Part shown: piece by piece, positions 10,940 to 55,570 of the stretch | How positions within the stretch are numbered: the first letter of the stretch is position 1 | Layout of the letters: every line of letters starts with the position of its first letter | From: Ligula intestinalis | Taxonomy: Eukaryota > Platyhelminthes > Cestoda > Diphyllobothriidea > Diphyllobothriidae | DNA length: 64,000 nt | Direction: 5' to 3' | Assembly (NCBI GenBank): GCA_036362985.1 | Contig: JAYGXS010000003.1 | Location: 50,746,521-50,810,520, forward strand | Position numbers and translations under genes: made by a program | Notes under the pieces: generated by a model | What the model was told of the DNA's origin: nothing | Databases searched by the model: none | The model's input: the letters and a program-made list of their open reading frames with translations, nothing else

Positions 10940-12155
10940 CACAAGTGCAATTTGTCAGTCGACGACCCACCCAAAGGCCATCGTCACCTGGCGTTTTAAA
11001 TTGTGCATTGGGATGTGTACTTACCTGGGCATAAAAGTAAATTGCCCGAAGGCAATATCCATCAGAGTCAGAGTCCTACACTAGCAGTAAATACGGCAAA
11101 CGTTTTGCTTGCGGATGATGAGGGCAGGTTTGTCAATTCACCCGTTAAGGAAGAGAAGTAATCTCTTACTGAAGTGGGCTGACGCCTACTTCTTCGTGGT
11201 TGTCTTCGTTGCGAATACTTTTGGAACATAGTCGACCAAAACACAACAGGAAAACGTGGGGGTTAACAGAGAAATGCTAACTTAAAGAGGGGTATGGCAG
11301 AAGTAAGATTTGTAGAACTGAAATGTTTATTGAAATGTGCATTCACTTTCTCTCTCCGCTGTCCACCAATCATTATCTAAAGGCTGTTGTGTTGTAGGAT
11401 TGTTAAATAGTGCCCATATGGGAAGTGGTACAGTGAAAACTGAGGAGGGGTGGGGAAGAGGTTACCTTGCAAAACTTTTGCGCTCATCGTTGCGATTCTT
11501 CGCTATCCTAACGTTCGTTGATTTCAATCAGGACGTAGTTATCATCAAAGGTAAAGCAGGCGTACTTCTGGAAGAAGATGCATTCGACGCGAAAACTTCG
11601 ATATAATGCTGTAATATTTCGCCGACATCTTGCAGAAAACACTGTCTTCTGTGCCTACAACGCGTATTCCGCGACGGCGGCTCAGACATGCTGAAAACGG
11701 AACAACACAATTGACAAAATTTAGGCGTACACAACCGCTAAAGCAAGAATGCGAACGCTTCACAGCTTGCAGGTGCAGGGAATTACGTCCGATAGCGCTC
11801 CACGGCCTCTGGACACAAAGTTCAATCGATTTTCCAATAGCGGAACGCGTCCACGTCTGCTCCTTTAGTAACGCGATGATGAGTATTCTGGGAACCAGTC
11901 AAAATAAGCCCTGACATACAACTAAAAAACGAGTCACCATTGCCTGAATTTTGCTATTAGGGTTACGGATTATTCTGTTACTTATTTTAATAACCACGAC
12001 CTGTTCTCTTTCATTTCGTGTTTCTTCATTTGTCCCTTGCCGCGAATGTAATAATTATATTTTTTTAAATTACAAAAGCGATATGTACAGGTGCGCAACC
12101 CAGTTCATTCGTGATCATTGGTAGGTGACGGTATTGTTACCTGGCCTCGCTCTAC
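10940..12155. other. Intergenic stretch, no supported gene
   Basis: On the minus strand near 11690 there is a good acceptor-like pyrimidine tract ending in CAG, followed by an open frame of about 53 codons. It matches nothing I know and ends in stops. The opposite strand is open over part of the same span (11337-11606). I see no repeat structure I can name. Confidence 0.3.
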
Positions 12156-12159
12156 TAGA

Positions 12160-12530
12160 AAGATGTAGGTATGGTATCTGCAGTACGGCCTAAAGTTCGT
12201 GTAACATGCCGACCTATGCAAAAGATTGAAATTCTTTCGCTAATCGGCAATGCGTGAGGTTGTAATACGTATTATCATGTAGTCTATTCTGAAGCCGTTT
12301 CAGTCACGCCTGCTGGCTTTCTAACGAGCTTCTTCCTGACCGCTAACAAAACGTATGTACTGTAAAAAGTGAATACTTAATTAGTATACCTGTTTATCAT
12401 TGATTTTGACCGCCATTATAAATTCAAATATATTGTATGGAAAATTTACGCGAAAAATGATTTTTTGTACTAATTTTGTGGAAAATTACGCCTTCTTTAA
12501 GTTTTATACTTAAAGAAGGGTACCCTTTGT
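12160..12530 (+). repeat. Partial copy (copy 2) of the unrecognised coding repeat family
   Basis: This segment is the diverged reverse complement of 13235-13900, allowing for the SINE inserted there. The best-conserved part, about 12330-12415 against 13610-13700, is close to identical over short blocks such as CTAACAAAACGTAT and ATCATTGAT. Translated on the plus strand, 12175-12360 keeps the same frame as the minus-strand copy, including the shared motif G-C-N-T-x-Y-H. The copy ends near a perfect palindrome at 12491-12519. It lacks the 5' two thirds of the coding region. Confidence 0.65.
12491..12519. repeat. Perfect 12-bp palindrome at the 3' end of the repeat family
   Basis: Arms CCTTCTTTAAGT and ACTTAAAGAAGG are separated by TTTAT. 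A related, less perfect palindrome lies at 13235-13262 in inverted orientation, at the matching end of the other copy. This suggests that the structure belongs to the element's 3' end. Confidence 0.8.
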
Positions 12531-12639
12531 TAGGACGGCCTAATGAACAGCCTTAGCAAGCCATAGCCGCACTCCAAGCAGGCTATCGATCGGCCTACAC
12601 GGGTGAACGTACACAAGCCGTCAATCGATCGATAATTCA

Positions 12640-13230
12640 GAATTCAAACTACAGTCATCCACTGAGCCAACAACCAATGGGACTGGCCACTATTTCAGAA
12701 GATAATCTGATTGGTTCGTGGACCTATCTTACACACGTTCGTTTCCCTTAGTTTCTTGTACCTCTAAAGCTCAAGGACTTCTGCCTCTGCACACTGTTTG
12801 TTGTGTTCTCTCTCTCTCTCTTTGGGCGCTCGCACGAGGCGTAATTAGGCGGCGGCTATTTTGGCCTAGGCTCCGTTACAACTATTTGGCGACGCATTAC
12901 GCGGTGATGTCTCGGCCTGGGCCTCCGTTACAACACCCTTCGGTTTAAAAAGTTTCTAAATTTCCTAATAAATTGAAACCTCCTGACTGCTACACTTTAA
13001 TTCAAGGTTTACAAACTGCACGCTGCGTACATACTATTTCATGAAAAGTATGTGTTCCCCCTGCAGTTTGAGGAAGAAGTCACATAGCTTTCATGAAATG
13101 TCGCAATAGATGTGGATCATGCCGTATAAATCATAGGCATCATTAATAAATTGACTGATACGATGTATTATAAATGAACACCTCACAATTGTAAAAAAAG
13201 TTCACAATTAGAAACTTTTTTAAAACCGAG
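12640..13230. other. Spacer between the two inverted repeat copies
   Basis: The stretch holds a short CT microsatellite near 12808-12820 and no recognisable coding sequence. Together with the flanking inverted copies it could form the centre of a 1.4-1.5 kb inverted-repeat structure. I see no transposase in it. Confidence 0.4.
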
Positions 13231-13309
13231 AGATACTCCTTCTTTAAGTATAAAATTTAAAGGAGCAATTTGCTTCCAAACAAGTACGAAGAATAATTTT
13301 TTCATGTAT

Positions 13310-13593
13310 GTAAGAGCTCTAATGGCAACGTGGACGGATGAGTGTGTCCTCTAACACATCGGTGTACGTGTAGTTGCTATTGTATGTCCCCGATCTAATG
13401 AAGTCGAGACTGTGAGCTCGTAGCTAAATTGTAAGGACGTTTGCCTCTGACCGGAGAGATCGCGAGTTCAAAACTCGGGTGTGGTAGCAATTTCAGTGGC
13501 AACACCGGAGTTAGGTATCACTAGCTGATGACGCCTAATGAAGCAGAAATGGCCATCCCTGTGTCCCATGTCTTTGTCGGTAATGTCCTTCTG
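13310..13593 (+). mobile_element. tRNA-derived SINE (family 1) with 7-bp target-site duplication
   Basis: The insert is bounded by the direct repeat CATGTAT (13303-13309 and 13594-13600) and interrupts the 3' part of the unrecognised repeat, whose other copy (12380-12530) lacks it. Inside, 13412-13482 is tRNA-like: a degenerate box A region (TAGCTAAATTGTAAGGACG) and a box B-like GAGTTCAAAACTC that can close a short T-arm. A family-specific tail follows, through ACTAGCTGATGACGCC and AAATGGCCAT. The same unit, in reverse, is at 48976-49346. The roughly 100 bases upstream of the tRNA-like part are shared with that copy too. Confidence 0.8.
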
Positions 13594-13639
13594 CATGTAT
13601 TTTAATTGATAAGGCAGAAAACATCAATGATAAAAATGC

Positions 13640-14533
13640 ATGCTACTTAATTAGCCGCTTTTTACAGTATATACGTTTTGTTAGTGATCAGAAAAAAGCT
13701 CGTTAAAAAAACCGGCATCCCATCGTGTCTGAAGTGGCTTAAGAATAGACTTAATGATAATCAGTATTGCAACCTTATTCAGTGCCGATTGGCGAAAGGG
13801 TATCAATCTTTCGCATATGTCGACATGTAACACGAATTTTAGAGCGTACTCTATAGATAAAAAATGATTATCTGGCCATAGAATAGGTACACTCATCGGT
13901 CGTTTGCGTCATCTTGCATTGTTTAAGCACACGCTTGGTAAGTGTCAAGCGACCCTTTAAGTTGCTTCGTCATCGCGAGGTCAGCCTTGTCGTCTGTATT
14001 TTACGATTCAAAGACCTCTGTTATGTAGAGTAGTCTCTGTTGTCAGGAAACCTCGTCTTGATCGATTCATACAGGACTGACCTAGACAGGTCATCGTTCA
14101 ACTCCCTGCCCTTGAAGTTGATGTACAGGCTGATCTCGTCTGCAAATAGCGTTTAAGATATGTGGCTGACGAAGTCATCTGGCGTTCGTCCGCCATGACG
14201 TGTCATATAGGAGATCTAGTTTAATGTATAGTGATCAATTTTTTGACTTACCAAATCTTTGCGGTATTCACCGTTATGTAGTTGGTCATTCGTTTCCTTT
14301 AAATCATCTGCTGAACTTACTAGGTAGCCGAATTTTGTCGCCGCAGTGAACGTCGACAGTATGTTTAATTCTTTCTGCACTGCTTTGATAATTCCGAGCG
14401 CTCTATCAATACCTTTTAGCAGGAAGCTCAGTATCTTAGTCATGTAAGTCATACACTAGCATATCGTCACGACAACCCTTTCCGGGATGTGGTCATGGTC
14501 AGTGAATGCCGGCCCCAACAAGTCTAAAGTCAT
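13640..14533 (-). pseudogene. Unrecognised protein-coding repeat (copy 1), interrupted by stops
   Basis: From an ATG at 14533 the minus strand gives a largely continuous frame to about 14040, broken only by stop codons after V-T-I-C, after H-Y-T-L-N and after V-S-H-I-S. It then continues in another frame after a change near 14035. Short landmarks are L-G-P-A-F-T-D-H-D-H, K-G-I-D-R-A-L-G-I-I-K-A-V and E-I-S-L-Y-I-N-F-K-G. The 3' quarter is shared with partial copies at 12160-12530 and 24540-24960, and in all three the frame with C-N-T/S-x-Y/F-H is the better conserved one. I do not recognise the protein. A transposon protein or an old endogenous viral element are both possible. No catalytic motif of a reverse transcriptase, helicase or DDE transposase is visible. 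Confidence 0.5.
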
Positions 14534-14559
14534 TTTAATGCAACTTCACCTAACGTCTT

Positions 14560-14595
14560 ACCATCCCCTGTAGGTCATTCTTCACAGGGGATGGT
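14560..14595 (-). repeat. Perfect 12-bp hairpin just upstream of the unrecognised ORF
   Basis: Arms ACCATCCCCTGT (14560-14571) and ACAGGGGATGGT (14584-14595) flank a 12-base loop. The stem lies 27 bases upstream of the ATG at 14533 on the minus strand, so it would sit in the 5' leader of a transcript of that element. Whether it has a role is unknown. Confidence 0.8.
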
Positions 14596-14984
14596 TTCGT
14601 AGGAAGCATTGCCCGTCCTGATTGTGCTCAAGTATTTCCTAGAATTTCAGCCGTCATTATATATTTTGCGTAACTTACCAGCTGTTTTAGGCCTTGACCG
14701 GACAACTCGAGTTCGTAGATAGTTGTATTAATAACCGACCTACGTTGGCATTGAGAGTGGGCTAGGCTGAGAGTTAACCATAGTGCTGTCTATAAACACA
14801 CCAAAAGAGGGGGATGTAAGTTTATGGTGTACATCATATCACTATGAGCATTTCTTCCCTACAGTGCTCGCAAACTACTCGCAACGAGAACTATGCCTTT
14901 GTAGGGTTTCCGAGTACCGTTTGCGTAGTCGAAATGATAGTAAGTAGCCCTCTAGGGGTTTCGTTTAAATTTAATTGATTAAAG

Positions 14985-15055
14985 TAACCAACAGGTCGTG
15001 GGTTCGAGCCTCAAGTTCCGCAACACCTGAAGTCGGATATGACCGACCTTGGAGT
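14985..15055 (+). mobile_element. tRNA-related SINE fragment (family 2)
   Basis: A box B-like GGGTTCGAGCC sits at 15000-15010, followed by a conserved tail block, A-C-A-C-C-T-G-A-A-G-T-C-G-G then T-A-T-G-A-C-C-G-A-C-C. The minus-strand copy at 27225-27345 has the same box B and the same tail. The box A half is not recognisable here, so the copy is 5' truncated or decayed. Confidence 0.6.
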
Positions 15056-15471
15056 GAATACTCGACAGTTATTCTTCCGCTTTGATTCAGCTTCTGGTAT
15101 CTATATAGCATGCCATAGATGAACTATATATTTCCTGTATACAATCGTTATCATGGTGACTTTTTCTAGATAGTCTCATTTATCTGTCCCAATGTATTAC
15201 TTAGCATATTCGCCGCGTTTTCCTACGTTAAAAAAGCAGGCGGGAAATTGCCAGATGCAGTGATTTAGTGTTTGGCGTCTTTATTTGTACTTCACCAGCC
15301 CCGGTCTACCACAGAGCGCACTGTTTTTGTGATCTTTACTCTTGCACCAAACAACAATTTCGTCTTTCATATCTTAGTAATTTTAGTGGTCTTGATTTTT
15401 TTCAACAAGCAGAACCCAAACTCGAACTTATCACCTGTTCCCATTATCAGATCTTCCGAACACCTGTAATT

Positions 15472-15486
15472 CCTTTCTGTTTGCAG
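15472..15486 (+). promoter_or_regulatory. Candidate splice (or spliced-leader) acceptor upstream of DDX1 exon 1
   Basis: The pyrimidine-rich run CCTTTCTGTTTGCAG ends 59 bases before the DDX1 start codon. No upstream coding exon is needed, because exon 1 already supplies the start. The site could accept an untranslated first exon or, as flatworms trans-splice many mRNAs, a spliced leader. I cannot tell these apart from sequence alone. Confidence 0.4.
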
Positions 15487-15545
15487 TTCTGCATCCGCCT
15501 CTGAGCCTTGTTTGTGTCAAGCCACTGCGTCCACTCTCGTTTACG

Positions 15546-18500
15546 ATGAGTACTGCTTTTGAAACAGGTGAGTCACTTTCTCTCAATAATACATTGATTT
15601 TTGATGCGCGCTTGTGATAGTAACGGTTTTGACAAGAATATGAGTAGGTTACGACAGCACCCTTCTGGACTTGCTCTGTATTAGCTCGAATTATCATAAC
15701 CGTAAACACGGTTGGAATTTTGACTTGTCCTTTATGTTATGATCAGCTTCATTTGCCGTCCGACTTTTCCAACAAAAACGCATATAACTAATTTACTAAC
15801 CCTTTCTATCCAATATCTTCGACTTGTCTGCCGGCGTAGTCTCGAATGCCACTAAACAGTGAAAACTGTGAGTGCCCAACTCGCAGACAGACGTGTGTCA
15901 TGATTGCATAGGCGTGCGTGAAACCCGTTTCCCTACATTCTTCTTCATGAAATCTGGCATTAAGTTTCCTGTTTTCTATCTTGTGGAAAAGGTGCATTCT
16001 TCGCAGATTCTGGCCTATAGTCAGACCTCCAAATACCAAGTTTGCTCATTGAACCGTGTTTAGTGAACGCAGCAGCCTATAACCTCTAGTCAACTGTCAG
16101 CAGGAATCTGGGAGCGCAAAAAATTGAACCGTAGTCTTTAAGGAGAGCATCTTTATGGCTCTAAAATGAACTTTAAATCGGAGCTTTTCCTTGCTGTTGG
16201 AACTAGGTCGTGTGGGGCATGCTTAGGTGGGCTTTGTCCGCGATCGAAACTGCGCTCACATTCTGTTGTCTCGCTATTATCTTGCCATTGGAGTCTGCTG
16301 AGTGATAGAAAGAGTGTGGTCGATGGTACGCAAGCCGCCTATTTTTTTTCTCTCCGTGGTACACATTGTGTACGTCGTCGCTTACAACGTTGGAATTCTT
16401 ATCAGCAACTCCGCCTGGAAAAATTTCATTCCTGGTTGTCTAACGCCAAATTTTACTCCTCGAATTCTTCAACTTACGTTATCACTGTCAACCCATCACA
16501 ATTCGTATCGTCTGTTTCCTCCATATTGGCAAGACTTATACATCACATGCTTATTTTTCGACGATTGTAGTAAGTTTTCATCCGGCCTAAACCACACACA
16601 GTGATATACTGCGCTCTATCAAAACCTTTATTTTTTTCACGCCTCAGAGATGGGCGTCATGCCTGAGGTCTCGAAGGCCATTCAAGAAATGGATTGGATC
16701 TTACCTACGGATATACAGAGTGAGGCAGTTCCCCTCATCCTCGGCGGTGGTGACGTCTTGATGGCAGCAGAGACCGGTAGTGGGAAGACCGGTGCTTTTT
16801 GCATTCCTGTCATCCAGGTTGTCTATGAAACCATCAAGGATTTGGAGTCGGGAAAGACGGTAGGCTATCTAACTTTATTGATTGCCATCTCACGCAATGT
16901 TTTGGTAGGAATCTCATTCAGCAGCAGCAGCAGGGCCTGTTGCGTCTGTGAACCAACACATCCATCTGAATGCTTTCGACAGAACTGAGGCCCTCGCAAT
17001 CGATCCAGATGGTCTTCTGTGTCAGAGTCGTGATCCCGCCGGTTGGCACGGAGCGCGTGCCACTCGTGGTGTCCGAAATAAGGGTTAGTCCGAAAAATCT
17101 GTTGATTTATTTTACCGATAGTAATGTTCTGAGATATTTTTTGAAATATTGTTCACCTTTACCATTTACACGTTTCATATTCAGAAAAGGAGTACAATAT
17201 TTTGAATAATCATTATATCCCGACAAAGATACTATGTCGTGCATGTTCGTTTCTGGCTTTTTTCCATTGCCAGCTAATCGTATCAAATTACAAAGACTTG
17301 ACGTCAGGACCCGAATACATTTTTTTCGTTGCGCCATATGCTCTGGCGATTGCGTCATGGCTGCAATTGAGGAGATCCGAGGTTCATAAGCGTGGTGTTG
17401 ACCGATCAAATTTTTCGGTGGAATCAATTTTATTTTTGAGCTGCTGCCCAACGTTCTTGTAGGCCGTTCTTAGTCATTTTTCGAGTTAACCCAAAACGGT
17501 CTACGACTGACGACTTCCTGTTTGCTACTTATTAATCACTATCCTTTTGGCATTTTCCTCCCATCTTCCTCTTTACATCTCCAGTAGATGGTTTTGCTTA
17601 CTTGTGCCCCCAGAAAGGTGACACTGATGCGTATCGTCGCTAGTTTTGGAATTTATGTCTCCTCCGCATCGAACCACGTACTCAGCTTCTTACTGTTGCT
17701 TATTTAGTAGTCCTAGCCTGTCTTTTGCCGTCGTGAGTTTTTCATCATAAATTAAGGAGCCCGTTCTCTCCATCCATTGCTCGTGAGCCTCCTCTCATCG
17801 CCAAAAATTCATTTATATGCGTTCTTGTGTAACTCTCATCAGCGCCCAACTGCGGCACCTCTTACCGACCAAAGGTATGAAGGGAAGTTTTTTGTGCGCC
17901 GAAAAAAAAACCTTTTGGCATTAGCTTTCGCTTGCTTTTTTACCATAAGGAACTTTATCGTCACATCTTTGGTAAGGTGGTGTGCATGCAATAGGTTGAA
18001 TATATCGGTGGTTTTTTACCACGGGGTACTTGATAAACAGCCTGTAAATATGGTCTAACACTATAACCCTACAGTACATTTTCTGGCGCCCTATCTTACT
18101 GTTGTCCAGTCTTCACATCTGCTCTAGTAAACCGTGAGAGGGTGTGATATTGAAGTTGGTGAGTTGTTCAACGTTGTCCCATTGCGAGATGGAACTCCTA
18201 TTTCACAATCAGTCGTGGTTATTGTTTCTTACTGTTTCAGACACTGAGCTAGCTTAAAAAAGTAGGACATGTGTCCTCATTTATCTCTCGTGCCCACAGA
18301 CTGAGTATGCGCTCACTACTCCTTTCAGCGCCCTTCCTCTGTTCTTCTTCTTCTTCTTCTTCTTCTTCTTCTCAAAACTTATCTTGAGGTCTATCTTGAT
18401 TAATATGCTTGTTTTTTACTCCTGTTTCATTCGATGTCCTGGTAAACCCTTTTCGTTGAGCAGGATGCGTCGACTTACGTCTTAACGTATCTTATTGCCT

Positions 18501-21500: not shown

Positions 21501-24500
21501 CTTTTCAATCATCTTTGTCTGTTCCAGCCTCGCCTAATAGATGACAGCTTACTTTGAACTGCTTTTGACCCTTCTTTTCTTTGAAATTACAGTTTTGTTC
21601 TTCTCATTTTTAAGCCCTCACGGGAGTTGGCGGAACAGACCTTCGAGCAGATTCAGAAGTTTAAGAAGTACCTTTCCAACCCAAACCCTCGTGCACTCCT
21701 CGTCATTGGTGGTGTTAACAGCAAGGATCAAATGAGTGCTCTCTCTCGTGGGGTACTTTACCGTTTATTATATACTTGATATGAAGTTCCTAACTTTTCA
21801 CCCTTTAGGTGCGTTCGTCTCATCATTTTGTTTTCATGTCTCTTTGCATCACATACTCTTTCCTATTCATCGTTGTGACGAAAGTGGGACTATAGAATCC
21901 AGCCAGTGCAACTATCTTCCCCTCAATACTTTCTACTTATTTCACTCTATTAAACAACTGGATCTCACCTGCATCGCCAGTTGTTATATCCCCGACTTAT
22001 AAGCAAAAAGGGCAAACAACTGGTTCTGATAGCAAGCCTTTATTTAGAACGGTGCCGAGACCACGGAAATCCTTAGCTTCTCCAATACAGCCAATTTATT
22101 AGGCTCTAGCCTTCTAGAATACTCCTCGCCCTATAGCATACGGCCGCTGTTCTGGCCTGCCGCTGATTCATAGTTCGCCGTGCTGTTTGTGGTCGTTACG
22201 TATGCCTTCTAATCGATAGTTCCCCACGCTCTGTGAACGGTCCTCGCGTGTGCACACTGATCGATAGCTGCTCGTTAGCGTTCGCTGATTGCTTATGCGT
22301 ATGACTCCAGGCCGTAGGCTCTGGGCGGCTTGCGTCCCTATAACAGAGCCCATCCCACTCCGTAGGACCGGCGTCAGGCGTGGTGGCTCCGACCCTCTGC
22401 GCCCGATCTTGCCTCCGGTCTTCTTGACTTTGTATTGACCCCGGACTCGGCGGATGAGGGAAGAGAGAGAGAGAGAGCGTGCAGCAGGTGCAGCGCAAGC
22501 CTTCTGTCACTTTAAACTAATCCTCGCACAAGTCACTGTCGGAACCGACGGTCAATTTGTGTTGCTCGGCTCGTGTCTTTTATAAGTCAGTAATCCGCCC
22601 AACTCACGGTTTCTCAATGTTTTTTTATGCAGGTGGATATTGTCGTGGCTACCCCGGGTCGTTTGGAGGATATGATTTCAACCGGTGCCCTCTCTCTCAC
22701 ACACTGTCGCTTCTTCATTTTGGATGAATGCGATGGGCTGCTGTCCGCCGGCTATGGTCCCATGATCCACAGAATTCACAACCTCTGCCCCAAGGTCACA
22801 CCGGATGGAAAACGACTTCAAATGGTCGTCTGCTCGGCCACCTTGCATTCTTTCGACGTTAAAAAGCTGGCCGTACGTCTCTGTGTTTTTTGTTTTTCCA
22901 TGCAGTGTCAAGCCCTCGTACAAATCAGCTCAGCACAAGCTTGTAGCCATGCTCGTGCGCGTTGATTTGGCGGTCTTGCCCTGTTTTTTTCTTTTTAGTT
23001 TAGCCGAATATCTTGTGCCTTTAAAACGTTGGGTAAACCCTACGCTCTATTGCACGATAATTATTCGTTCGCTGAATTCGACGAGGTGGTAGTGCTGAGG
23101 AAGTATTGCTGACTTGCGTATGAACTCATTGCCAGTGGGAGACGATTGTTCGGTTTCACCCTTACTCTATTCTCACGCCCATTACGATTCAGTACTTATT
23201 TAAAGTTGGGATGGAAACGAGTGGGCATGGGAAACAAGAGTGACTTCAACCACCTTGGTGGTGATTGGCCGCCTTGAAGGTTGATCTCCTTAAGTAAGCC
23301 ACCGCTGTAACGTTTTTCGGGACACAAACTACCAGGGTCTCCCGTATCGATTCTGATAGTTGGGTCTTCTCAATCCTTCGAAAGCGCCTATAAATCTGAC
23401 GCGACATCTCTATCGCCGCGAAGATTCGTGTAAACCGTGCATCCATCTGGTCAGTCCTCCTCTATGGATGTGAATGCTGGGTTGTACGTGCTAAAATGAG
23501 CGAAGACTGGAGGTCTTTGGCCACCGATGCCTGAGGACTAACCTGCGAGTTAAGTATAGCGACCCCATCTCGAATGAGACAGTCCGCACTCGCTGCGATC
23601 GTATCGCGAGGATATCTCAGACCATTCAAGAAAGGCGACTGAGGTGATTTGGACACGTTATCCTTCGTCCGCCCCACGAGCTTAGCTATGCTGCCCTCGA
23701 CCGGGCACCGCAGCCCACCTGGAGGCGTCGAAGAGGAGGGTAACTGAAGACTTGGTTCGACACTGTCTGTAAAGACATGGAAGCAGATTTTGGAGTTTTT
23801 ATCTTCGGTCTCCATTGCTGGAGAAGGGACTGGGTGAGGCTCTCCAGATCCGCTGCTGCCAATCGTCACACATGGAGAGGTACCATCCGTGACATCATTG
23901 AGGCCGGCTAGATCAGGCGTGATCACAGCCGTAACAAGTACAAGTACAAGAACCACCAGATATGTATGCCCATAGTGAAAACCCTTGAGGTACTGGTGAT
24001 GTAATGCAAACAAAATGCCCAGATGCTCTGCAACGGCTGATAGATGACGTAGCGATGGGTCCACCGCACACCCTCAATGACCTCGATTTCTACTGTCGCT
24101 ACGTGAATGCCATCCTCTGCCTGACAGATTATACTACCGCTATCACCGAGACTGTGTTCCGGAAGTTTAGGAGCGTGAAGCCGTCGCACAGGTTGTCTGC
24201 AGTCGACACCACCTGCATCTACTTGACTACGTAATGAGCGAAACGGTTGCACTCCACCGGTATACGTTTTGGGGTAGCAGATTACGTCTTTTTCCAATTT
24301 CATACTGCATTTTTCGGTTAAAAAAACTTTCATTTGCTGATGACTTTGGAAAATAAACTGCATTCGGGTCTTTCGAAGTACCTGCTGTATAGCCTCAGTC
24401 GAGGGAAAATTATACATTCGCCTTCTTAGGAAGACGTTACACAGGGCTCATAAAACCTTGCAATGCGTATGGAACATGTTCTATACCTTACAAGCAGCAT

Positions 24501-27500
24501 GAATGAATGGGCATTCTACGGCCCTAAAAATCTCATAATTTAAACTTTTTGAAAACTGTAAGGTACCCTTTAGTCAAGACGTAGAAGAAAACGTACCAAA
24601 TGATGACAAGAAAGTATATTTCAAATTTGAAAGACATCGAAAATCACTGCTAAAAGGTGCTTACAAATTAATTAGTCTTTTTACAGTGCGTTTTTGTAGA
24701 CAGCCGGAAAGTAGTTCGTTCAAAAGTCGGCATCCTGATGTGACAGATATATCTTAGGATAAGGCTGTATGAAAATTACTATTACAAGTCTAACTAAGCA
24801 ATTTTTTGCAAATCGAAAGCATATTTCGGAATTTCCGTTGACATTTCATGTGATTGTTAGCCTACTGTATGCTTGCATCGTCACTTGGCCCTCTAAGTGC
24901 ATTTCCTCGAGGCGCGCCGTCATAATTCGCCTTTGCTATAATCGGATCTTTATTGATAGCTAAATCAACTTGTTTGGTTGGCTGCAGTTAGGCTGCTCAA
25001 ACAATTATCTATCCGGCATCCATACCAATCACCCAACAACTTTGTAAACCAGTATTCATCGTGTTTCTACTTTAGAACCAGTTGATGCATTTTCCCGTCT
25101 GGATCGACCTCAAAGGCCAGGACACTGTCCCGGAGACTGTGCACCACGTAGTAAGTAACCGTTACTATCCCATCTTTTATCATTTCACTGTGACGTCGTG
25201 CTTGAGCAGACAGTCAGACAAAGCACACGGACAAATTACCTGTCTGGCGGTTTCAATTTTTAGTTTCTTTGTCCTTCATGTCCCACTTGCAGATTCTTGA
25301 AAGTCTTTAACCCACTCTTTCAGTGGAAGACTCTTTGTATGGCAAGGGAAGTGCACTCACCGGTTCACAAAAACCTAATCTAACTCGTTCTACTTGATCC
25401 TCCATGGCTTTTTGGTATCTTCCTCTCCCGGATGAGGTTGCCTGGGACTAGCCAATCTTTTGCGAATATCACCGTATTCTCGTGGTGCTTTCTCCCCGAC
25501 TATTTTATTCCTTTTGCGTTTTGTTTCATTCAGATGTGTCTGGTGAATCCCTACCAAGACCCCTCCTGGAAGGACCTCATGCAGACCAAGGATCATATTC
25601 ACACCGATGGTGTCCACCTGAAGGACAAACTGAATGTGAACTATGAAACTCCGGGTAAGCTGGTTCACTAGTTGCAATCATTTGTTGTTTATCATGTTTC
25701 TCTGTTTAGTTAACTCAAAGACGGAACCATGTTTGATACTCTTTTGCAGCGCGAAGCCTCAATCCGCGTCTATATGCAGGATAAACTAACTTTGCGACCG
25801 CTGATGGCTTACTTTTGCTGTGGTCCATATTTTCTCATAAGTCGGGGCTAAGTAATAGAAGTTTTGATTGGACGAGTGAATCCTCCATGACCGGAATGGG
25901 TTGTGATTTACAGAACCCTGATTATGTAAACGATCCGGTAGGTGGCCCCACTCAAAAAACTAGAGATAAGGACGCCTGCAATACGGAAATGGCGGTGATA
26001 AATGATTTTTTGGATGAGGCAAACAAAGCTGACATATAGTTGTTTTCGGGATGTAAAAGATAAAAACTTACATTTACGCCAATAAAGCCCAAGAATGCGG
26101 GCCCCTAGTTGGAAGTTGGGAACTGAACCAGGAAGAAAAATAAAAACCGCAGATATTGGTTAAGTATTCCGCGCGAACATTGAAGCCTACCTCCTAATCC
26201 GTGCCTACAGTCGAATAATATCTTCTAATCATGCATCCAGTGCTAGACTTAATGGCAACACCTAGAAGTTTAACGGAAAGGGGATTAACTTAAGCCTTCC
26301 CAAATGACATGAATAGGGATTTCTTAGAACTATCTGCCAGATGGGGCCACATATCCGATCGTTAGCCGCTTTGGAAGCTCGGAGTCCATAATTCTGGGGC
26401 TTCTACCTCGGGCCACTCCCTCTCCCCCCCATATTGGTGTTATTTTATGCAGTGTATCTGTTTATTCCAACGGTCTTTTCAATAACTCGTGCAATAATCC
26501 CCAGGAATGCTGAAGTCAGCCTTTCCGTGCTTCTTTAAACGCAAGACGAACCTGTCGGCCATGTTTTCCGTCGCTTGCGAATCCACTGCACTGGGACTGG
26601 CAAACCCGTGCTAAGTGCCCGATCATTCACCCGTCATTGACATTTCACCTGCCTACGAGACATTCGGCCATGAAATAGGCCCATCCGGCCATATGCGCCT
26701 CCACGAATTTCTCCAGTAAAACAGCACTGTTCAACCCCCGCCCGTCGCAATACCCCGTTTTTAGTGCATACTAACCTACTCCACGACACACACGCACATG
26801 CGCGACACCTCTTCGCAACACAACCAACAAAATTCTTGCAGCACGTACTCGGTTCGTCTTGCTAGTGCCGGCACGGCGACTGAAAATTCGCATATCAGAA
26901 AGTGTGCATTTGACAAAAACGGGAAGCATGTTCTTGGACGTAACCTTGTACACGTAGACGGCGTGTTCAGCTTTGCCAACCATTACGACAGAGCCCATAG
27001 TCAGTCTCCTGCCCTAATCTTGCCATAGAACCCAGTTGGATGAGAGGGAGAGCTTGTGGTACGTACTAAGCAAGCCTGTTTCACTATAAAGAAACTTACA
27101 CAATGATATACGGACGCTTATTGATCGGCTAAGGAACTCATTCGTCCCATTGTGTCTTTGCTCTCTCTCGCTCTCTCTCTCCCCTTTTCTCTCTCTCTCT
27201 CTCTCACCGTGTTTAATGATACGTTACCGACAAGGACCGACCATACCCAAGTTCAGGGGTGGCAACCCCCGGGGCTCGAACCCGTAACCATGTTAAATGG
27301 AAGTCTAACTCTCTAACCACTGTGCCACGTGCTCTTTGCCTTGTCCGTTTCGATCGGGAATATAGACAACAGTCGATGGTTGCTCCCCTGTTTACGCGAT
27401 TAACTCGTCCCGTGGAGCCTTGGAGACAACGATGCTGCGCTCACTCCGTGAAGCACGCAGTCAACATCGTCGCTGGCATCGGTTAAACTGTTGTTTATGA

Positions 27501-30500
27501 GCGTGCGGGCAGGTTGCTGACAGGAGACTTTGGGAATTGATGTCACCTTGCTCACCGTCCTTAGCACCTGCTTTTGAGATATTTGTAGTTCGGTCAGCTA
27601 GTCGCTTTGTTCGTTTTCTTGGGGTAGTGTAGGGCAGTACTGTGCGCACATAATGTCTGACAAGTAAAAAAACATAGGCTGCAACTAGGGAATTGTCCTA
27701 AAGAGGTTGGCTTGGGCATTTGTAGAGAGGGTCAGTTTGTTGTTGGCTCTCAATCTGCAGAGATTACAGTACGAAGTCATCTGCAACTACCCTATCTATG
27801 CCTCCATTTATCGTCCGTTATTTGTTATCTTATTTCATGAAGCTTGACAAATGTAGGAGTGGTCTATTTTAACAGATCTTGTATTAAAAGCAAACACAGA
27901 CGTTTCCAAATAGATTATAAAGCGTTGACTCTTATTTAAGCTCTGTGTATAAAGAATGCTTGATATGATGGGGTACTGTCGTCTTGTCGCGATATTTCGC
28001 GGGTCATATGCTGTTTTTTATCGAGATTCCTACCACTTAACAGCATTTGTCTCTTCTATCTATCCCCCTGTAAATGGTCCCAAGCATCCGCTTTTCTCCA
28101 CTGTCCGTGCCAAAAGCACATGCTGGTTTACGTGGTCGTGCCAACCTACACGCCTGAGTAGAGTATTTTTCAAGTTGCATCGCATCCCACACTGTGCTAC
28201 CTGTGGAGCCACAGGCACTCGATCAGCCGTCTGAAAATAATCAAGGCTTATAAGTACTTTCTGAAAATCAATATTCATCTAACATTATCTGGGGGTTTTG
28301 CAAATTTGCTTAATTCAGTTGACNNNNNNNNNNNNNNNNNNNNNNNNNNNNNNNNNNNNNNNNNNNNNNNNNNNNNNNNNNNNNNNNNNNNNNNNNNNNN
28401 NNNNNNNNNNNNNNNNNNNNNNNNNNNNNNNNNNNNNNNNNNNNNNNNNNNNNNNNNNNNNNNNNNNNNNNNNNNNNNNNNNNNNNNNNNNNNNNNNNNN
28501 NNNNNNNNNNNNNNNNNNNNNNNNNNNNNNNNNNNNNNNNNNNNNNNNNNNNNNNNNNNNNNNNNNNNNNNNNNNNNNNNNNNNNNNNNNNNNNNNNNNN
28601 NNNNNNNNNNNNNNNNNNNNNNNNNNNNNNNNNNNNNNNNNNNNNNNNNNNNNNNNNNNNNNNNNNNNNNNNNNNNNNNNNNNNNNNNNNNNNNNNNNNN
28701 NNNNNNNNNNNNNNNNNNNNNNNAGCCTTCCCTGCTGTGTGGGTTCGACTCCAACCGAGGCCGCGAATTTTTCACAAGTGGGTCAACTGAATTCATATAT
28801 CACCTCCCCGTGCTTTTGTGTATACCTGTGGGAAGTGGTAACTTCTTCTTCCTAGCCAAAATTCGATGCAATGCCTGGTGTCAACTTAATTGAAATTGAG
28901 CGTTTCAGCGCATCCTTGGATGTGCACTTGTAACGTTTAACTGTTTGATGGACACTTGACTGCCTCCAGTAGTAGATCCTTTTCGTCCCTATCTCATCTT
29001 GTTTTTTTTGGCTGTGTGCAGAGTTGCTGTCCGAAGCCATCAAACTCCTCAAGGGTGAATACGTCGTGCGGGCTATTGAGCAGCAGAATATGGACAGGGC
29101 GCTTATCTTCTGCCGGACTAAACTAGACTGTGATAACCTGGAGCAGCGCTTCATTGCACTCGGTGGAGGTAAACTGTCGTCACACGTTTGAGTTAATTTC
29201 GTCCACTTTTTTTATTTCACCCATCCTTGCCTTCTTAACGATAAGATCACCGCGTATACCCATCTTTAGTTCATGCTTTTCCACTGCGATTCTCCCAGGT
29301 ACATCTTTGGTATAGCGCTGCGCCCTTCTGCGTATGCCTCCATTCGGCGATTCGCTAGTCAGACATGTCGTTTGCCAGTCTTCCGCCAAAGCCAACTACT
29401 GTTTCACTGAATTTCGGCCTGAATCCTATTTTAGGATCTTGTGACCATTGCCTTGGTCGTTCGGTTGCGTTTCGTCAGTCCCTGTGCTTGCTGCTCGATA
29501 TGATAAGGCACTGGAATAGGTATCCTCTGGAATTTCACGCAAGGCTACCTGTAATACGGGGATTACTCACTCCGACCCGCCTCGATTTCTTTTTCCCTGC
29601 TGTCCTGCATTGGTTTTGCCTGGGATATAGAAGCAACCTATGCAGCTGGTCTCTGAAACTGTCTTTACCGCTGTCCGTATCTCGCACGCAGAGAATAGGC
29701 TGTGGTTACAGTGAATGCAGAAGTGGTTTCGGGAGCAAGCTTCTCTTTTTCGTACACTTTTAAAGATTCTTCCCCTCATCTAACCTCAATCTGCCTATTA
29801 CCGTGTGAATTGAACTCCTCTGATCAATTTACTCAGTCTAGGATCTGACCAAATACGGGATTACCTAGAGACAAATTGACTCACGGGCGTGCGAAGCTAG
29901 AGCTTTTTAATCATATGCACTTTGGAAAGAAGGGAGTTGGGCGTAAGCAGGTGTTTAAATCTGTAAATAATCAGAAATTGAGGCCCAAACTATTCCACAC
30001 ACTCACATAGGCTCGGAAGAAATTGATAGAAACCGAGACACGATGTTCAGTTTTAAGGAATGTGAATGCCTTTTTGGTGGCACTTTAAACCACAGTCTAC
30101 GTGTTTCAGTTCCATGGTACGCCAAAAGTTATTCTAGGAATGGAATGGTTGTTACGCTAAACTTGTCCCATGAATGTGCTGAAACTGGGGCAGGATAGAG
30201 CAAAGTGACATCTCAGCCATTAGATCGAAATGAAGAGAGTAGATCGCTTTTTGGGAAATACGAAAATCGGGGGGCTTGATTGTTACAAACCACCGTCATT
30301 TTATACACTATGGACTAAAAAAGATCAGAAACATACATGGGAGGCTACAACGTACAAACAGGCAGAGCAATAAAGGATAAAAGGAAACTTGGTAGTACTC
30401 CTCGGAATATAAATCAGGGAATAAAATGTATACGGATTGCCACAAGCTAAAAGTGCAGGTCCATTTATCTCACGTGTAAAAACAACCTCTGAGGCTAGGA

Positions 30501-33500
30501 TGACACTTTTAAGAACCTAACGACTTTCGTGCTTGCTGTTTTTTCCACTTTTTTGAACTGTTTTTTTATGCTCTTTCCAGGCCCCTTGCAGCCGCACTCA
30601 CGCTATAGTTGTGTCTGCCTGCACAGCGACCGAACACCAGTAGAGCGTAAGGCTAATCTGCAAAAATTCAAGGTACTTACTTCAACGCATTTTCAATGGC
30701 AGTCTCTTTTCCGTCCGTGCTGTTGGCCGGGCTATTTTACTGCCACACCTGCCCGAATATTAACTTTTCCGGTGGCCTTTGTTTTTTCTTCTGTCCCTCT
30801 AAAGATTGAACACCCTTCTCTTTTCATTCTGTAGAACGGCGATGTCAACTTCCTTATCTGTACTGACGTTGCTGCACGCGGTCTTGATATTACGGGCTTG
30901 CCTTATGGTTAGTTTTCATTTCATCTTTGTGCTGTTCAGATTATCCTTTTTTTCTCTCCAACCGGCCATACAATCTCAGCCAAGCAGTATTTCTTTCCCT
31001 TCGAAGCATTGCTGCCCTCCGAGTACTTGTATTCGTTGCTTTTTTCAAAGGAACACTCAATTATTGTTTTATCCTGTTATGCCTCACAGCACCTCTAATC
31101 TGCCTTCCCTTCCTCGCAGTAATAAATGTGACTCTTCCTGACGAGAAAGAGAATTACGTTCATCGTATCGGTCGTGTCGGTAGAGCAGAAAGGTAACGAC
31201 TGTACCTTGCTTTCTCTTTTTAACTTTAAGTTATACTTGTCCTTTGAATGTTTTCTTGTGGTTCCTGGGCCCGTTGTGGAAGGCTCTACCTTCGTTTCTT
31301 TCTGTTTTTTTGTCTGTATTGTCTGCATCACGTGATTGCTAAGCTATTTGCTGGGGTCGCATGGTCCGTTTTTAGCTAGTTAGTTCACTTTTCCGGTTAC
31401 TAGTTCGTCCTTCCAAACTCCCACAGCATTTTGAACCACATGCAATTGTACTACGGCGTTCGAATTATAACGGAGTCAATTGTGCACTATGGCTCAAATG
31501 TTTGCTCCTATAAATACACTGCATTCTGTCTAGGTTAGATTTTTAAAATAACACTTAGCATCTTCAGTCCCAACCCTGACTCGTGATTGGTCGCATTTTC
31601 CTTTTGAAGATTCTATGTAGCATGTTAAAAATTCCTGAGAACTTCAACGGTCCGTTCCTTTGGTACTTTTTGTAGTCGACGGCGGTCTGAGTTGCCAGGT
31701 GGCGCAGTCTGTTGTATTAACGCTAACCAGTCTCATGCGTCTTCGATTAGGAAATATTACTTAAGTGAAGTTGTAATATTTTTCGTCATGCGGCATAATC
31801 TTATGCTATATCATACCTTCCTTTCGGCTGCTGACTGGCATCATAATCAGTTAAAAACTGATTGCTTAGGTTAGTATGCATGTTTTCGATTGATTTTCGA
31901 TGCCCTTGTAAATTAAAACATATTTGATGGAGAAGGTAAGCAAAAATGTTCTTTTTGTACTCGTTTGGTAGCAAATCACGTTTTATACTCAGAGGTAGGG
32001 TATATTTGGGTTTTGCCGAATCTTTTTGCGCCTGATCTGCCACTTAGGTTTTTAAATCTACAGGCTGTATGCCTCCCGGGTGAGGAAACTCCTAAATGTG
32101 TGCATGCAATTGCAAAGATATTCGATTGCATCCATAAAAATTTGCGATGATTGTAGCCTAGGTTTTGTAGTTCACGGGTAACATTAATAAGCGGATAGAG
32201 AACGATGCTATTTGCATGGACATTATACGGTCTTAAAAAATCATATGATCGAAAACGTAGACAGTAAAGGATAATCTTCTTTCGAGGATGCAGTTTAAAA
32301 GAGGTGTGATTGTTTGCCAAATTACTACAGAATAGGATATTTTGCACGTGTTTTCAATAAGATATACCTTAATTTACAGAGGCATGGAACAAGCAGTCAT
32401 TTTACTGCGTAGGGTTTTAGCCGGCGGCCTAAAGGAAGTACATTCAATGGCCCAACTATCAGGAGAGCTGAACAACCGAACAGATCAGTGAGCGAAAATC
32501 GCTTTCCTATTGGATGCATGCGTTGATTGCTTATTGGCTGCTTTAGCGAGACCACTAATGAAATAAACGCAACCCACGTTGATAGGAAAGTGATTTTAGC
32601 TTGGCAAATGGTTCGCTTGTTCATCCTTGGCTATTACCATCCGACTTACCTAATCTTTCCTAATCAAGGATGCGTGTCAGAACTTCGGTCAAACATTTCA
32701 TTGAGTTGGTCATTCACTGTACAGCAGGTGCCGGTTGTGCTGTCTTACCAGACCTAAACGAATGACTAAGATGAAGGCATCTTAGCGACTTAACAGTCAT
32801 TATGCGGAAGGCTGCTAATGACGTCCACTCAGAACCAGGAGATATGTGGCTTTACAGTAGTCTTCGCCTATGTTACATCTGAATGAGCAGGATTTTGTTC
32901 ATGACGGCTAAAGTATCAGGGTATGTGGGGTGCGCGCAGACAAGGAGTCAGCCACGGCTCTATCGCTAAGTCGCAGTTGTCTTGATTTGGACTTGCCTTT
33001 GAAGTACGACTAATTCGGGAGTACAAGAGGAGGCCAAGGCTGTACAGGTTTCCCTCTATAGTCCAACTAACCCACTGGATATCTCTACTTATAGAAAACA
33101 GCAATGTACTTCCCTTATGAATGCCGCCAGGCCTAGTCTTTCTTTTTGTGATTCATTCGGCTGACCAAAGCTTCTTGGTTCTTCTAATTCCAGGATGGGT
33201 TTGGCAATCAGTCTGGTCGCTGCATGCAAAGAGAAGGTATGTTTAATGCCTCCTCTACCTCGTTTCTCCTTGTTTCCCACCTCCGTCGCCTGACCCCCCC
33301 CCCCACTCTCCTTGTCGTTTTACTCCACCTGAAGGTTTGGTACCACTCCAACTGCTCCACTCGTGGCCGTGGTTGTTTTGACACCCGACTTGTATCCAGT
33401 GGCGGCTGCTGTATCTGGTATGACGAGCGTCAGCTGCTGGGACAGATCGAGGAGCACTTGGGTGTGACTATCGATGCCGTAGGAATCGACCTGAAGGTGC

Positions 33501-36230
33501 CTGCCAACGAGTTCGACGGAAAGGTGGTCTACGGAGAGAAGCTGAAGCACAGTTAGTTTCCAGACCTTACTGTCCTTTTCTGTGGTTTTCACATGCGTTG
33601 TTCTCTTGTGGTTTATCGCAGGCAAATGCTTTCAAATACCATTTTTTCCTCTTAAGTCATTGTGTTTTACCCTGTCGTGTTTTTCTGGTGTTCCATTGAT
33701 GTGCCCTGAGAGTGCCTGCTTGAATTTGAAAGTCAAGTAATGGACATTATGCGGATTCTTTTTAGTAAAACGTGGTGAATCCCATAGGTTAGTAGAGCCG
33801 ACCTTATTTACCCACTTCCATTTATTCACTAACTGAATTGAGGAAAGAGTATGGGCTTTCCGAACGCACTTATGTCTAAGCCAGCTTGGCTAATCAGAAA
33901 ATACTGGGAACCGCAAAGACTATGTTAGCCCGAATTCTAAAGTAGCCTGATGACTTCAATCAGAATTTTGTGTTGCCTCCTTAGCGCAATTCTTATTTGT
34001 TAGTTGACTTCAGTAATTGTGAATATGTGCTTTAGGGTTGTGTTTCCTTTGCAATGTAATGATTCCTTGGGATCGATCTCACTTGCCTACCCCTTTTCGA
34101 TTCCTGCTGACTCTTCTTACCCAATCAACCAGGTGGTGCTTAAATTCAGCGAGCTGCCAGTAATTGTGTAAATTATCTGCCCCATCTTGCGCCACACGTA
34201 CAGATAAACAAGTATGACTCACGAATAGAAGCGACTATGTGTGCCCCAGGTTCTTGTTGTAAAGAGGAGGACGCGATCCCTGGAACAGCACCTTTATTTT
34301 TCTGAGCTTTCGGCTCCACACGAGAGGCCATCGTCAGAGAAAATTAGAAAGCAACAAACGTTGGCTACGCGCAACTAGGGATGGGAGGCAGGTGGCACTT
34401 GTAATTGGTCCATGCCTACGCCCACGTCTATTTTCACACCATCTAATCGTGTCTCCCCCGCACGCGTCTCTGGAGTAATGGCGTGTGACCTTGACGTGGC
34501 AGCCTGCGTGCTTGGGCAGGAACCGGACTGTGGTTTCTGATCGCGAGCACGGATGGCAGAATAACAAGGAGGTATATCCAAATGCTTGTCGATGGAGTTG
34601 GGGCCTGATAACCAGACCTCCAGTAGTTCTCGCCCCGTCTTATTAGCAGCGCTTTCTATTTTTTTCTGACGATGGCTTCTCAGCCCAATGCATATTCGGT
34701 GCTGATGCTAAACTTGGCCAAAGCAAGTCGCCGCTCGGGGAACAGACAGGCTACCACATCATCCTATGCCAACACCGCAGGGCTAGATGGTCATTGCTGA
34801 CGCAACGAATGAGCGCACACTCAAGGCATTTATCGATTTTTCTGCACGTTTAAATTTTCCAGCAAAACCCTGTGCACACAAACAGTTTTTGCTACTGTTC
34901 TGTGAATATGTCTCTGATGATGAATCCGCGACGGATTTCGAAACTTCACGCGAGTAAGCATATTTTCATAGCGATTGAGTCGTCTTCTACTTCTCAAGTC
35001 TCTGACATTGAACGCACGTTCATTATGAGGACATATTAAAGTAAACCGTGTTTTGTTATGCTCTTCCTTTGAAAAGTACCACTTTATAATTTAGTACTCA
35101 AATCTAGTTGACAGACTCTCGTGCAGACACCTAGCCTTTAGGTTAAGCGAGGACGAGTAAATGCATTTTTAATACCGCTAGAGACCAGAAGTTGGGTTCC
35201 CGAAAAACTTGAGAAGTAGCCACGCGCTTTGGAACACAACTGAATTCGCCTGATGTTTCAGGTTCACACTTGAATCTAACATTAGAGACGGAATTAGATA
35301 AGAGCATAACTGATAGTCTTGCCGCGCATGACAAGTCGGCTGCGAGGAACTGTGCCATTATCGTTTCACGTGTAACCGGCTGCGCGGAACGCGAGAGCAG
35401 CCCATTCTGATACCATAGCTTTGCTATCGCATGAAGTGTTAACTGAACTGTCCTGAAGTGTTTTTTTCGATTCGAAACGCTAACTTATAGAGAGTTATCA
35501 TGTTAATTATTGTGCAACGTAAACTCACTGCAAAAAATAACCATTTGAATAGTTTGGATTTTCCTTATCGTCTACTGATACATTTTAGAGATAACATGTG
35601 CATAAATAATATTGCTGTACGCATTTGGTAGCAAAGTCAATCGCCAAAATTATGTGTTAAGAATTTGTATCGTTCATTTTTTAATCTTTTCAATAATAAG
35701 ATTGTTAAAGATCATGAAATGTCTATTCATGAAGCATGGTTTCTGTCCAACTAATAATCTGTTTAAAAAGTATACATCGTGGTCCGCATCCATTGCATGA
35801 TTTTACGAGTACTCTATGCTGTCTGCCTAATAGCATAGATGATTACGTAGGAGTTCCTCGTACGGTGGCCTCTGAGTTTGGGGGGTTGGGCGGCAGCGGG
35901 GACTCAATAATGAAAACTTTCTTGCATCTTTTTAGTAGCTCGATTTACATATTTTTTAAATTCATTTGTGGCGCACAGGCGCACTTCTGATGGCTGCTGC
36001 AGCAGCAAAATTTGAGTCGGTGGACTTGTCACCAATTTTCCATTTTTATCGTCCTCCTTGTGCATGCAAAAAAAACTTACTGCCAACCTGCCATTCTTCT
36101 TCCAGTGGCTCCGAAGTACAAGGGTCATGCGGATGTCTTGGCGTCGGCCCTGAAGGAGCTCAACTCGCTGGAAAAGAAGTCCCAGCTGAGCTTCCTGGAA
36201 CTTTGCTATGGGAATCTGCTCAAGTCCTAA
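15546..36230 (+). CDS. DDX1: ATP-dependent RNA helicase DDX1 (17 exons)
   Basis: DDX1 is a DEAD-box RNA helicase with a SPRY domain inserted after motif I, known from tRNA-ligase and RNA-transport complexes. Coding exons: 15546-15567, 16648-16859, 16909-17083, 18542-18775, 18973-19164, 20615-20676, 21615-21752, 22633-22872, 25076-25150, 25534-25654, 29022-29168, 30581-30672, 30835-30907, 31120-31192, 33194-33236, 33335-33551 and 36106-36230. All introns are GT-AG, the phases agree, and the sum is 2241 nt (746 aa; human 740). Landmarks: Q-motif Gln 31; AETGSGKT 48-55; SPRY about 79-275 ([20 protein letters not shown]); PSRELAEQ 300-307; TPGR 352-355; motif II DECD 376-379 (DEAD in human DDX1); SAT 413-415; LIFCRT 518-523; [10 protein letters not shown] 580-589; HRIGRVGR 609-616. 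All helicase motifs are present, so the enzyme should be functional. The start is set by exon 1 (MSTAFETE), which aligns with the short human N terminus. Intron 2 is only 49 bp, and intron 10 contains the assembly gap. Confidence 0.97.
15568..16647 (+). other. DDX1 intron 1
   Basis: The intron opens with GTGAGT and closes with a long T-rich tract and CAG. An open frame of 134 codons (16166-16570) lies inside it, without any recognisable similarity and without its own splice context. I treat it as chance. I see nothing else in the intron. Confidence 0.7.
17084..18541 (+). other. DDX1 intron 3 with a (TTC)n microsatellite
   Basis: No nested gene is visible. An uninterrupted TTC repeat of about ten units occupies 18342-18372, some 170 bases before the acceptor of exon 4, within a generally pyrimidine-rich 3' part of the intron. 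Confidence 0.75.
19610..20100. repeat. Dispersed repeat shared by DDX1 introns 5 and 11
   Basis: The block around 19725-19850 (CTAGGAATGG, then CAGCCATTAG, then GTGAAGAGGGT) recurs in diverged form around 30135-30250 (CTAGGAATGG, CAGCCATTAG, ATGAAGAGAGT). Flanking sequence aligns more weakly over a few hundred bases. The minus strand at about 20160-20330 may carry remnants of a reverse-transcriptase frame, but too little is left to name it. Confidence 0.45.
20677..21614 (+). other. DDX1 intron 6
   Basis: The stretch is A+T-rich, with no repeat or coding feature that I can support. It ends in a T-rich tract and AAG, directly before the exon encoding helicase motif Ia. Confidence 0.6.
22010..22530. 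repeat. G+C-rich island in DDX1 intron 7, possible solo LTR or repeat
   Basis: Base composition shifts to G+C-rich between about 22030 and 22500, then returns to the intron norm. A (GA)n run lies at 22462-22479. On the minus strand the segment ends with an AATAAAGG signal near 22036, which would fit the end of a solo LTR, but no second LTR or matching terminal motif is in the window. Part of the right edge (CACTTTAAACTAA near 22509) recurs near 8625. Confidence 0.3.
23240..23955 (+). mobile_element. RTE-type element, C-terminal and 3' end fragment, in DDX1 intron 8
   Basis: With several frame changes the plus strand encodes the C-terminus of RTE ORFs: L-L-Y-G-C-E-C-W near 23458, R-L-R-W-F-G-H-V near 23638, the R-R-R-G-G-Q-L-K-T-W-F-D block near 23727, and the terminal [12 protein letters not shown] stretch ending at a TAG at 23909-23911. 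A short tandem tail (ACAAGTACAAGTACAAG, about 23934-23950) follows, as is usual for RTE elements. The fragment is 5' truncated and inactive. Its orientation matches the host gene. Confidence 0.8.
24540..24960 (-). repeat. Partial copy (copy 3) of the unrecognised coding repeat family
   Basis: The segment aligns with 13600-13900 in the same orientation, with shared blocks such as AATTAGTCTTTTTACAG and CGGCATCC. On the minus strand its frame gives T-C-N-S-N-F-H and [10 protein letters not shown], matching the other copies at the same places. It lies in DDX1 intron 8. One in-frame TAG and one TAA interrupt it. Confidence 0.6.
27225..27345 (-). mobile_element. tRNA-related SINE copy (family 2)
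   Basis: On the minus strand the unit begins with a box A-like TGGCACAGTGGTTAGAG (near 27335) and has a box B, GGGTTCGAGCCCC, near 27280, about 50 bases further on. This is the spacing of a tRNA. The tail (C-C-C-T-G-A-A-C-T-T-G-G then T-A-T-G-G-T-C-G-G-T-C-C) matches the copy at 14985-15055. It lies antisense within DDX1 intron 10. Confidence 0.7.
28324..28723. other. Assembly gap of 400 N flanked by short inverted repeats
   Basis: The run is exactly 400 N, probably a placeholder or estimated size. The left edge ends TTAATTCAGTTGAC, and its reverse complement GTCAACTGAATTCA begins about 60 bases right of the gap (near 28783). Open frames that appear to cross the gap are artefacts. Confidence 0.99.
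30050..30400. repeat. Dispersed repeat in DDX1 intron 11 (partner of 19610-20100)
   Basis: This is the counterpart of the intron 5 repeat, in the same orientation. The clearest shared blocks are CTAGGAATGG near 30134 and CAGCCATTAG near 30215. Confidence 0.4.
31193..33193 (+). other. DDX1 intron 14 with a separated inverted repeat
   Basis: The only structure I see is an inverted repeat: AAAATCGCTTTCCTAT at 32495-32510 and ATAGGAAAGTGATTTT at 32582-32597, matching at 15 of 16 positions around a 71-base spacer. The rest is A+T-rich, without a supported gene. Confidence 0.6.
34250..34990 (-). repeat. Possible 3' untranslated end of a retroelement in DDX1 intron 16
   Basis: The block around 34290-34570 is G+C-richer than the intron and has open stretches on the minus strand without a recognised domain. 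Near 34320-34345 and 34665-34685, GCCATCGTCAGA and its complement TCTGACGATGGC lie in opposite orientation about 330 bases apart. The look is that of a Penelope-like or other retroelement 3' region, but no reverse transcriptase or endonuclease motif supports this. Confidence 0.25.
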
Positions 36231-55556: not shown

Positions 55557-55557
55557 C

Positions 55558-55570
55558 TGGTGACAGCTCA
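55558..55570 (+). other. Candidate primer-binding site
   Basis: TGGTGACAGCTCA starts one base after the LTR end. TGG is the expected complement of a tRNA CCA end. Its position fixes the LTR boundary at ACA/C. I do not assign the priming tRNA. Confidence 0.65.

Follow-up and report, generated by a model that had tools for sequence, protein, structure and literature searches.

A stretch of 64,000 nucleotides from the tapeworm Ligula intestinalis (contig JAYGXS010000003.1, positions 50,746,521 to 50,810,520 of the forward strand), called the window below, carries between positions 12160 and 14600 a repeat that raises a simple question: are its copies the remains of a gene, or parts of something else? 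A sequence-only reading had taken them for a multi-copy coding family shaped by past selection on a protein, either a new transposon or an old endogenous viral gene.

Alignment to related copies gives a different picture. Positions 12181-13851 form one inserted unit, referred to here as element 1, and the similar stretches at 12160-12530 (plus strand) and 13640-13850 (minus strand) are its two facing arms, not copies of a gene. The parts of this unit, and the DNA that received it, are listed here.

12181..13851, minus strand (relative to the L009 copy): element 1, best read as a non-coding DNA transposon with long terminal inverted repeats (TIRs), including two later nested inserts (from the L009 alignment and the empty site in L085)
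12179..12180, no strand: left target-site copy, TG, taken as a mutated TA
12181..12529, plus strand: left arm (TIR), beginning CAGTACGG (arm profile positions 1-355, E 1.1e-81)
12491-12519: short palindrome close to the inner end of the left arm
12528..12934, no strand: nested insert 1, bordered at each edge by ACCCTT (12522-12527 and 12935-12940; gap at 12523-12938 in the L009 alignment)
12939..13212, minus strand: interior between the arms, aligned to the L009 interior within a 77% match
13213..13311, minus strand: right arm, inner part, which nested insert 2 has separated from the rest of the arm (arm profile positions 268-369, E 1.1e-17)
13309..13594, no strand: nested insert 2, presumably SINE-like, with ATGTA on both sides (13304-13308 and 13595-13599; L009 alignment gap and repeat comparison)
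13596..13851, minus strand: right arm, outer part, beginning GAGTACGC at 13851 (arm profile positions 2-256, E 2.4e-58)
13852..13853, no strand: right target-site copy, TA
13854..14880, minus strand: flanking DNA that received element 1 and contains the proposed open frame; 13860-14540 is a low-copy repeat with seven matches including itself

When the 985-bp element at locus L009 is reverse-complemented, its positions 22-341, 345-716 and 730-985 align to 12207-12522, 12939-13311 and 13598-13853 of the window, the window copy covering L009 positions 22-985 save for two short breaks. Since both gaps in this alignment correspond to later inserts, the element spans 12181-13851, and the part of the proposed frame that lies above 13851 is flank. 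The two arms, compared over 12182-12433 (plus) and 13850-13595 (minus), are 78% identical, and differ by 20% over 250 columns. Nothing is shared between the outer flanks (score 18, shuffle mean 20.7), and the score of 33.5 between the inner ends, which the best of 200 shuffles also attains, was afterwards explained as the inner ends of the arms. No tandem repeats were found in 12181-13851.

Our description of nested insert 2 as SINE-like leans on what we take to be the look of a tRNA promoter; ARAGORN detects no tRNA in it. Part of this insert recurs at 49061-49176 (79%), and the SINE-like pieces at 13309-13594, 49061-49176, 39081-39129 and 39253-39301 are 78-79% alike, the longest sitting in the right arm of element 1. 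A hammerhead ribozyme in this insert, an idea based on a motif, found no Rfam support up to E 5 in 11900-14700; more generally, an RNA gene was discarded, with no Rfam match in the window at gathering score and none up to E 5 in 11900-14700. In the tail of nested insert 1, GGCCT...CTCCGTTACAAC is present twice; the insert has a 67% match in L004 at 129-330.

The flank provides the record of the insertion. The repeat at 13860-14540 has six other partial or longer relatives, the best of which (L085) shows 69% identity across query positions 2-657. When L085 is aligned to the window, the match (67%) covers 14880 to 13850 and breaks off at the element end. If the two window flanks are joined with one TA, the score against L085 is 578, versus 504 for a single flank, and beyond the junction 92 of 144 columns are identical and 10 gapped. 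None of 400 other window stretches reaches 578 (best 522) in a control that excludes 11000-16000; some 300 unfiltered stretches gave a maximum of 658, probably because they overlapped the flank repeat. The predicted cut outscores all others of the 121 compared (-60 to +60), and L085 contains no arm match up to E 0.1. This diverged relative of the flank is therefore an empty site for element 1, and implies a single insertion event for both arms. A weaker second empty site is seen in the comparison of L040 with L046 and L076.

The family to which element 1 belongs is abundant in the genome searched (644 Mb, 2377 contigs). An internal arm pattern has 166 exact matches, versus none for its control, and among the first 100 places listed several form plus-then-minus pairs about 540-700 bases apart. 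A terminal pattern allowing up to two mismatches occurs at 547 + 531 = 1078 sites, versus 0 + 0 for the reversed control; the pattern itself includes TA, and these counts are therefore no test of the target site. Related elements are about 1 kb long, carry TA flanks and have ends of the form CAGTACG-N-N-CCAGAATTCGTG, each arm measuring about 365 bp; those at L009 and L011 measure 985 and 1063 bp, and their halves mirror each other. Twenty plus 20 genome places were fetched by the exact internal pattern, and so do not represent a fair sample of the family. After removal of five loci duplicating others (L001, L003, L005, L006 and L007), 32 of 43 loci outside the window hold a convergent arm pair, while in 11 no more than one arm exceeds the score cut. 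Neighbouring arm pairs at these loci are convergent in 32 cases, divergent in two and in the same direction in six (40 in all), or 26, one and six if L009-L014, picked since they were listed as pairs, are omitted.

TA, which is not part of the model, precedes 40 of the 53 ends that fall within the first three model positions (the window contributes two of these ends, and elements used in building the model three); the 13 others include the window's own left end. Counted manually, 15 of 25 two-ended elements, the window's included, have TA on both sides. In 25 loci outside the window, the divergence between the arms of an element ranges from 5 to 31% (mean 19.5%), and in five of the 25 each arm has its partner as nearest relative. 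The inner TACTGTA was considered as a second transposase site and dropped, its conservation being not above average in the 24 of 73 arms that are free of the anchor pattern. In L010, mirror symmetry at 745-2057 continues past both ends of the element into flanking DNA (95.7% over 535 bp), which suggests either an inverted duplication larger than the element or its insertion into a different inverted repeat.

How does the proposed gene fare against this structure? The similarity among copies stands, both between the arms and with a more distant relative at 24788-24607 (minus strand, E 1.8e-16), and the string C-N-T/S-x-Y/F-H does occur in translation, as GCNTDYH, GCNTYYH and TCNSNFH. In contrast, neither the open frame, nor its specific conservation, nor the identity of frame and repeat held. 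The frame at 13640-14533 was said to contain only scattered stops; the best of its six frames has 12, a count that 504 of 1000 dinucleotide shuffles match or better (mean 12.4), and the six stops of 13851-14533 taken alone are matched by 124 of 1000. Moreover, the element ends at 13851, so that most of the reading frame lies outside it, in the low-copy flank repeat.

Could the repeat nevertheless be a decayed protein-coding sequence, or an old viral gene? The same residues return in one frame of three copies, and between the window arms the frame in question has the highest amino-acid identity of the six (62 of 98 codons) and the fewest stops (9 over both arms), the other five having 57-60 identical of 98-99 codons and 12-16 stops. 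Differences by codon position are nevertheless 20/21/18 in this frame, and 19/19/21 and 21/19/19 in the other plus frames. The sequence-only reading had named copies lacking frame-specific conservation as the outcome that would speak against it, and such are the copies that we found. On 73 arms (score 150 or more, with a control preserving base and CpG class), the synonymous fraction in this frame (+1) is 0.209 versus 0.244 expected (z -2.16); synonymous changes below expectation are the opposite of what protein constraint produces. The other five frames range in z from -1.07 to 2.28, and all six carry 4 to 11 stops in 121-122 codons. The best of them, +0, reaches the z of 2.28, yet its majority sequence contains 9 stops within 122 codons. 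Diversity by phase over the 73 arms is 0.219, 0.231 and 0.257 (p 0.087, or 0.061 after base and CpG correction). The weak +0 signal, together with the top identity and fewest stops between the window arms, leans toward coding. Against this, 1222 of 1398 gaps in arm pairs under 20% diverged are not multiples of three, and the flank repeat, compared with L085 in the same frame, shows changes of 63/58/57 by codon position, six stops in each copy and a synonymous fraction of 0.169 versus 0.200 expected. No Pfam family matches the repeat, no homologue was found among 223 word-sharing candidates, and no relatives were found in viral contigs or in phages. A coding or viral origin is thus very improbable: the repeats are genuine, the proposed protein is not.

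Of the two kinds of origin left open by the earlier reading, the transposon is the one retained, with no coding capacity and, in the proposed frame, no codon-position signal of past selection. Inverted ends, many copies and the absence of coding capacity, by which MITEs and other non-autonomous elements are recognized, are all found here. The TIRs of Tc1/mariner elements start CAGT-like, and a 2-bp TA duplication with CAGT suits Tc1-type elements. Element 1 and its relatives have ends CAGTACG / CAGTAGATTCCC, and the TA duplication appears in the ends, in the both-side counts and in the single TA of the empty site. Our best reading of element 1 is thus a non-autonomous, non-coding, long-TIR DNA transposon of Tc1/mariner type, now old, the superfamily being suggested by the ends and the target site. 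Taken jointly, these findings make it highly probable that we are dealing with a non-coding DNA transposon, about 1 kb long and with TIRs of about 365 bp, cut and pasted into TA by a transposase encoded outside it, which most likely belongs to the Tc1/mariner superfamily. Such a transposase, supplied in trans, would move the element into TA dinucleotides; the window copy would have entered an older low-copy repeat as a single unit, duplicating TA, then taken in two further inserts and decayed. The family as a whole is presumably immobile today. Element 1 is in this respect an ordinary kind of mobile DNA, and its family belongs to a known transposon type.

Two other origins have to be weighed against a Tc1/mariner transposon. 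The arms are inverted and merely about 78% alike, as in an inverted segmental duplication or a recombination product that was never mobile. However, 1078 terminal matches genome-wide, unlike flanks that end at one point and an empty site leave this origin with a next to negligible probability. Alternatively, the same structure may have been mobilised by a transposase of another superfamily that duplicates TA, such as CMC/Mirage. The ends of CMC/Mirage elements are of the CACTA type, whereas those found here are CAGT; Tc1-type transposases do occur in this genome, and TA with CAGT fits them. In favour of another superfamily, the Tc1/mariner assignment is read from the TA and CAGT ends, the partner transposase was not found in our search, and Table 2 of PMC8166898 lists CMC-EnSpm elements for related tapeworm genomes. 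On balance, we consider another superfamily unlikely. Helitrons, which lack both target duplication and terminal inverted repeats, came to mind on account of the short palindrome, and are ruled out by the TA duplication and the long inverted arms.

The search for the partner began from the genome's Tc1-type DDE_3 transposases, of which at least 92 matches were found (150 of 467 candidates scored). No transposase gene was seen in element 1, and in none of 30 fetched DDE_3 loci do the arms bracket the gene; an arm-like stretch lies near three of them (L053, L061 and L058). By manual count, 19 of the 30 show inverted pieces of another kind, the TATTCATTTATATAGACCCCTGTATGCATTT type. At several of the Tc1-type loci L049-L077 these pieces repeat at 22-base steps, an unusual terminal structure. 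Four DDE_3 matches fall within 0.73 Mb of one contig (G000:C3:8156605-8885375), and two of the four clustered loci, L053 and L061, share the arm-like stretch on one side. Five single-arm loci, inspected as 5-kb stretches, gave no transposase recognised by eye among stop-free frames of at least 120 residues; the stop-free frames of L083 and L081 measure 120-159 residues. At L079 both arms of an element turned out to be present, enclosing a frame that resembles the GIY-YIG part of Penelope.

Among known systems, Bari elements (Tc1/mariner, Drosophila) have the TA duplication, inverted repeats of about 250 bp in Bari2/3, three direct repeats per end, and MITEs with the same ends, according to PMC4877112. 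The present family is like them in its TA duplication, long inverted repeats and non-coding derivatives with common ends, a likeness of description, not of sequence; unlike them, its arms are about 365 bp and an autonomous partner was not found. DNA/TcMar-Tc1 repeats, given as 0.63% and 0.53% of the Sparganum and Spirometra genomes in PMC8166898, where MITE-hunter was used, offer a likeness by description in a related host group, in a class expected to hold such elements; the present family may be among the 21% unclassified repeats of that study. The available portions of PMC4877112, PMC12471100, PMC8166898 and PMC7913693 do not name the family, and we do not present it as unpublished. In foldback elements, long inverted arms form most of the element. 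Element 1 has this trait, but differs by its 2-bp TA target and by the tandem repeats sought in vain above. For genome annotation, a false lead, that of a new protein family, is removed, and an abundant repeat family now has ends, arms, a target site and an empty-site proof, useful for masking or dating tapeworm-type genomes; we claim nothing wider. As to a possible role, PMC6880638 reports a canonical piRNA pathway as absent in a tapeworm lineage. Hypothetically, transcripts through mirror-image elements of about 1 kb could fold into long double strands, many copies supplying siRNAs that silence related transposons, a role that we regard as very doubtful.

The window contains two further members of the family.

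24607..24788, minus strand: remnant copy, part of one arm (arm profile and L009 alignment), with a further interior piece at 24429-24508
31705..32719, no strand: element 2, of the same kind but assigned to a second subfamily and heavily eroded, with an uncertain left end (right end CAGTGAATGACC, TA at 32720-32721)

A partner arm for the remnant was sought and is unsupported (score 29, shuffle maximum 36). Other matches to the arms in the window lie at 13301-13238 (minus), 31852-32014 (plus) and 32384-32266 (minus), with weaker ones at 35526-35683 and 37899-38097, and a profile made from the two window arms also picks up 31764-31993, 24787-24613, 13309-13238 and 32391-32276. The inverted arms of element 2 (31734-31778 with 32632-32676, and 31896-31945 with 32340-32389) score 61.5, the best of 200 shuffles reaching 45.5, and its right end, TACAGTGAATGACC, resembles those of second-subfamily relatives. 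In this subfamily (L012, L015, L027, L038 and L043) the inner arm is shared and at least one end is of the kind TACAGTAGATTCCCTATCTCATGAAATG, the left end of L038 being TGCAGTAGATT; L002, L035 and L036, compared for such ends, have none with an intact TA end.

Retroelements are also abundant in the window. One of them, a LINE at 42947-46057, has reverse transcriptase (RT) and endonuclease domains; its protein has a best match of 84% over 92%, and relatives in Spirometra (76% over 89%), Sparganum (77% over 82%) and Dibothriocephalus latus (84% over 20%). The frames at 51360-52921, with a weak RT match and GIY-YIG, are presumably Penelope-like, and those at 55386-60000, which have no Pfam match above cut-off, we take to be Gypsy-like. 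A run of 400 N at 28324-28723 may be a gap in the assembly or sequence that was withheld. Finally, a nearly identical 54-bp tandem unit, in two copies at 55452-55559 and again at 60356-60461, flanks the Gypsy-like region.
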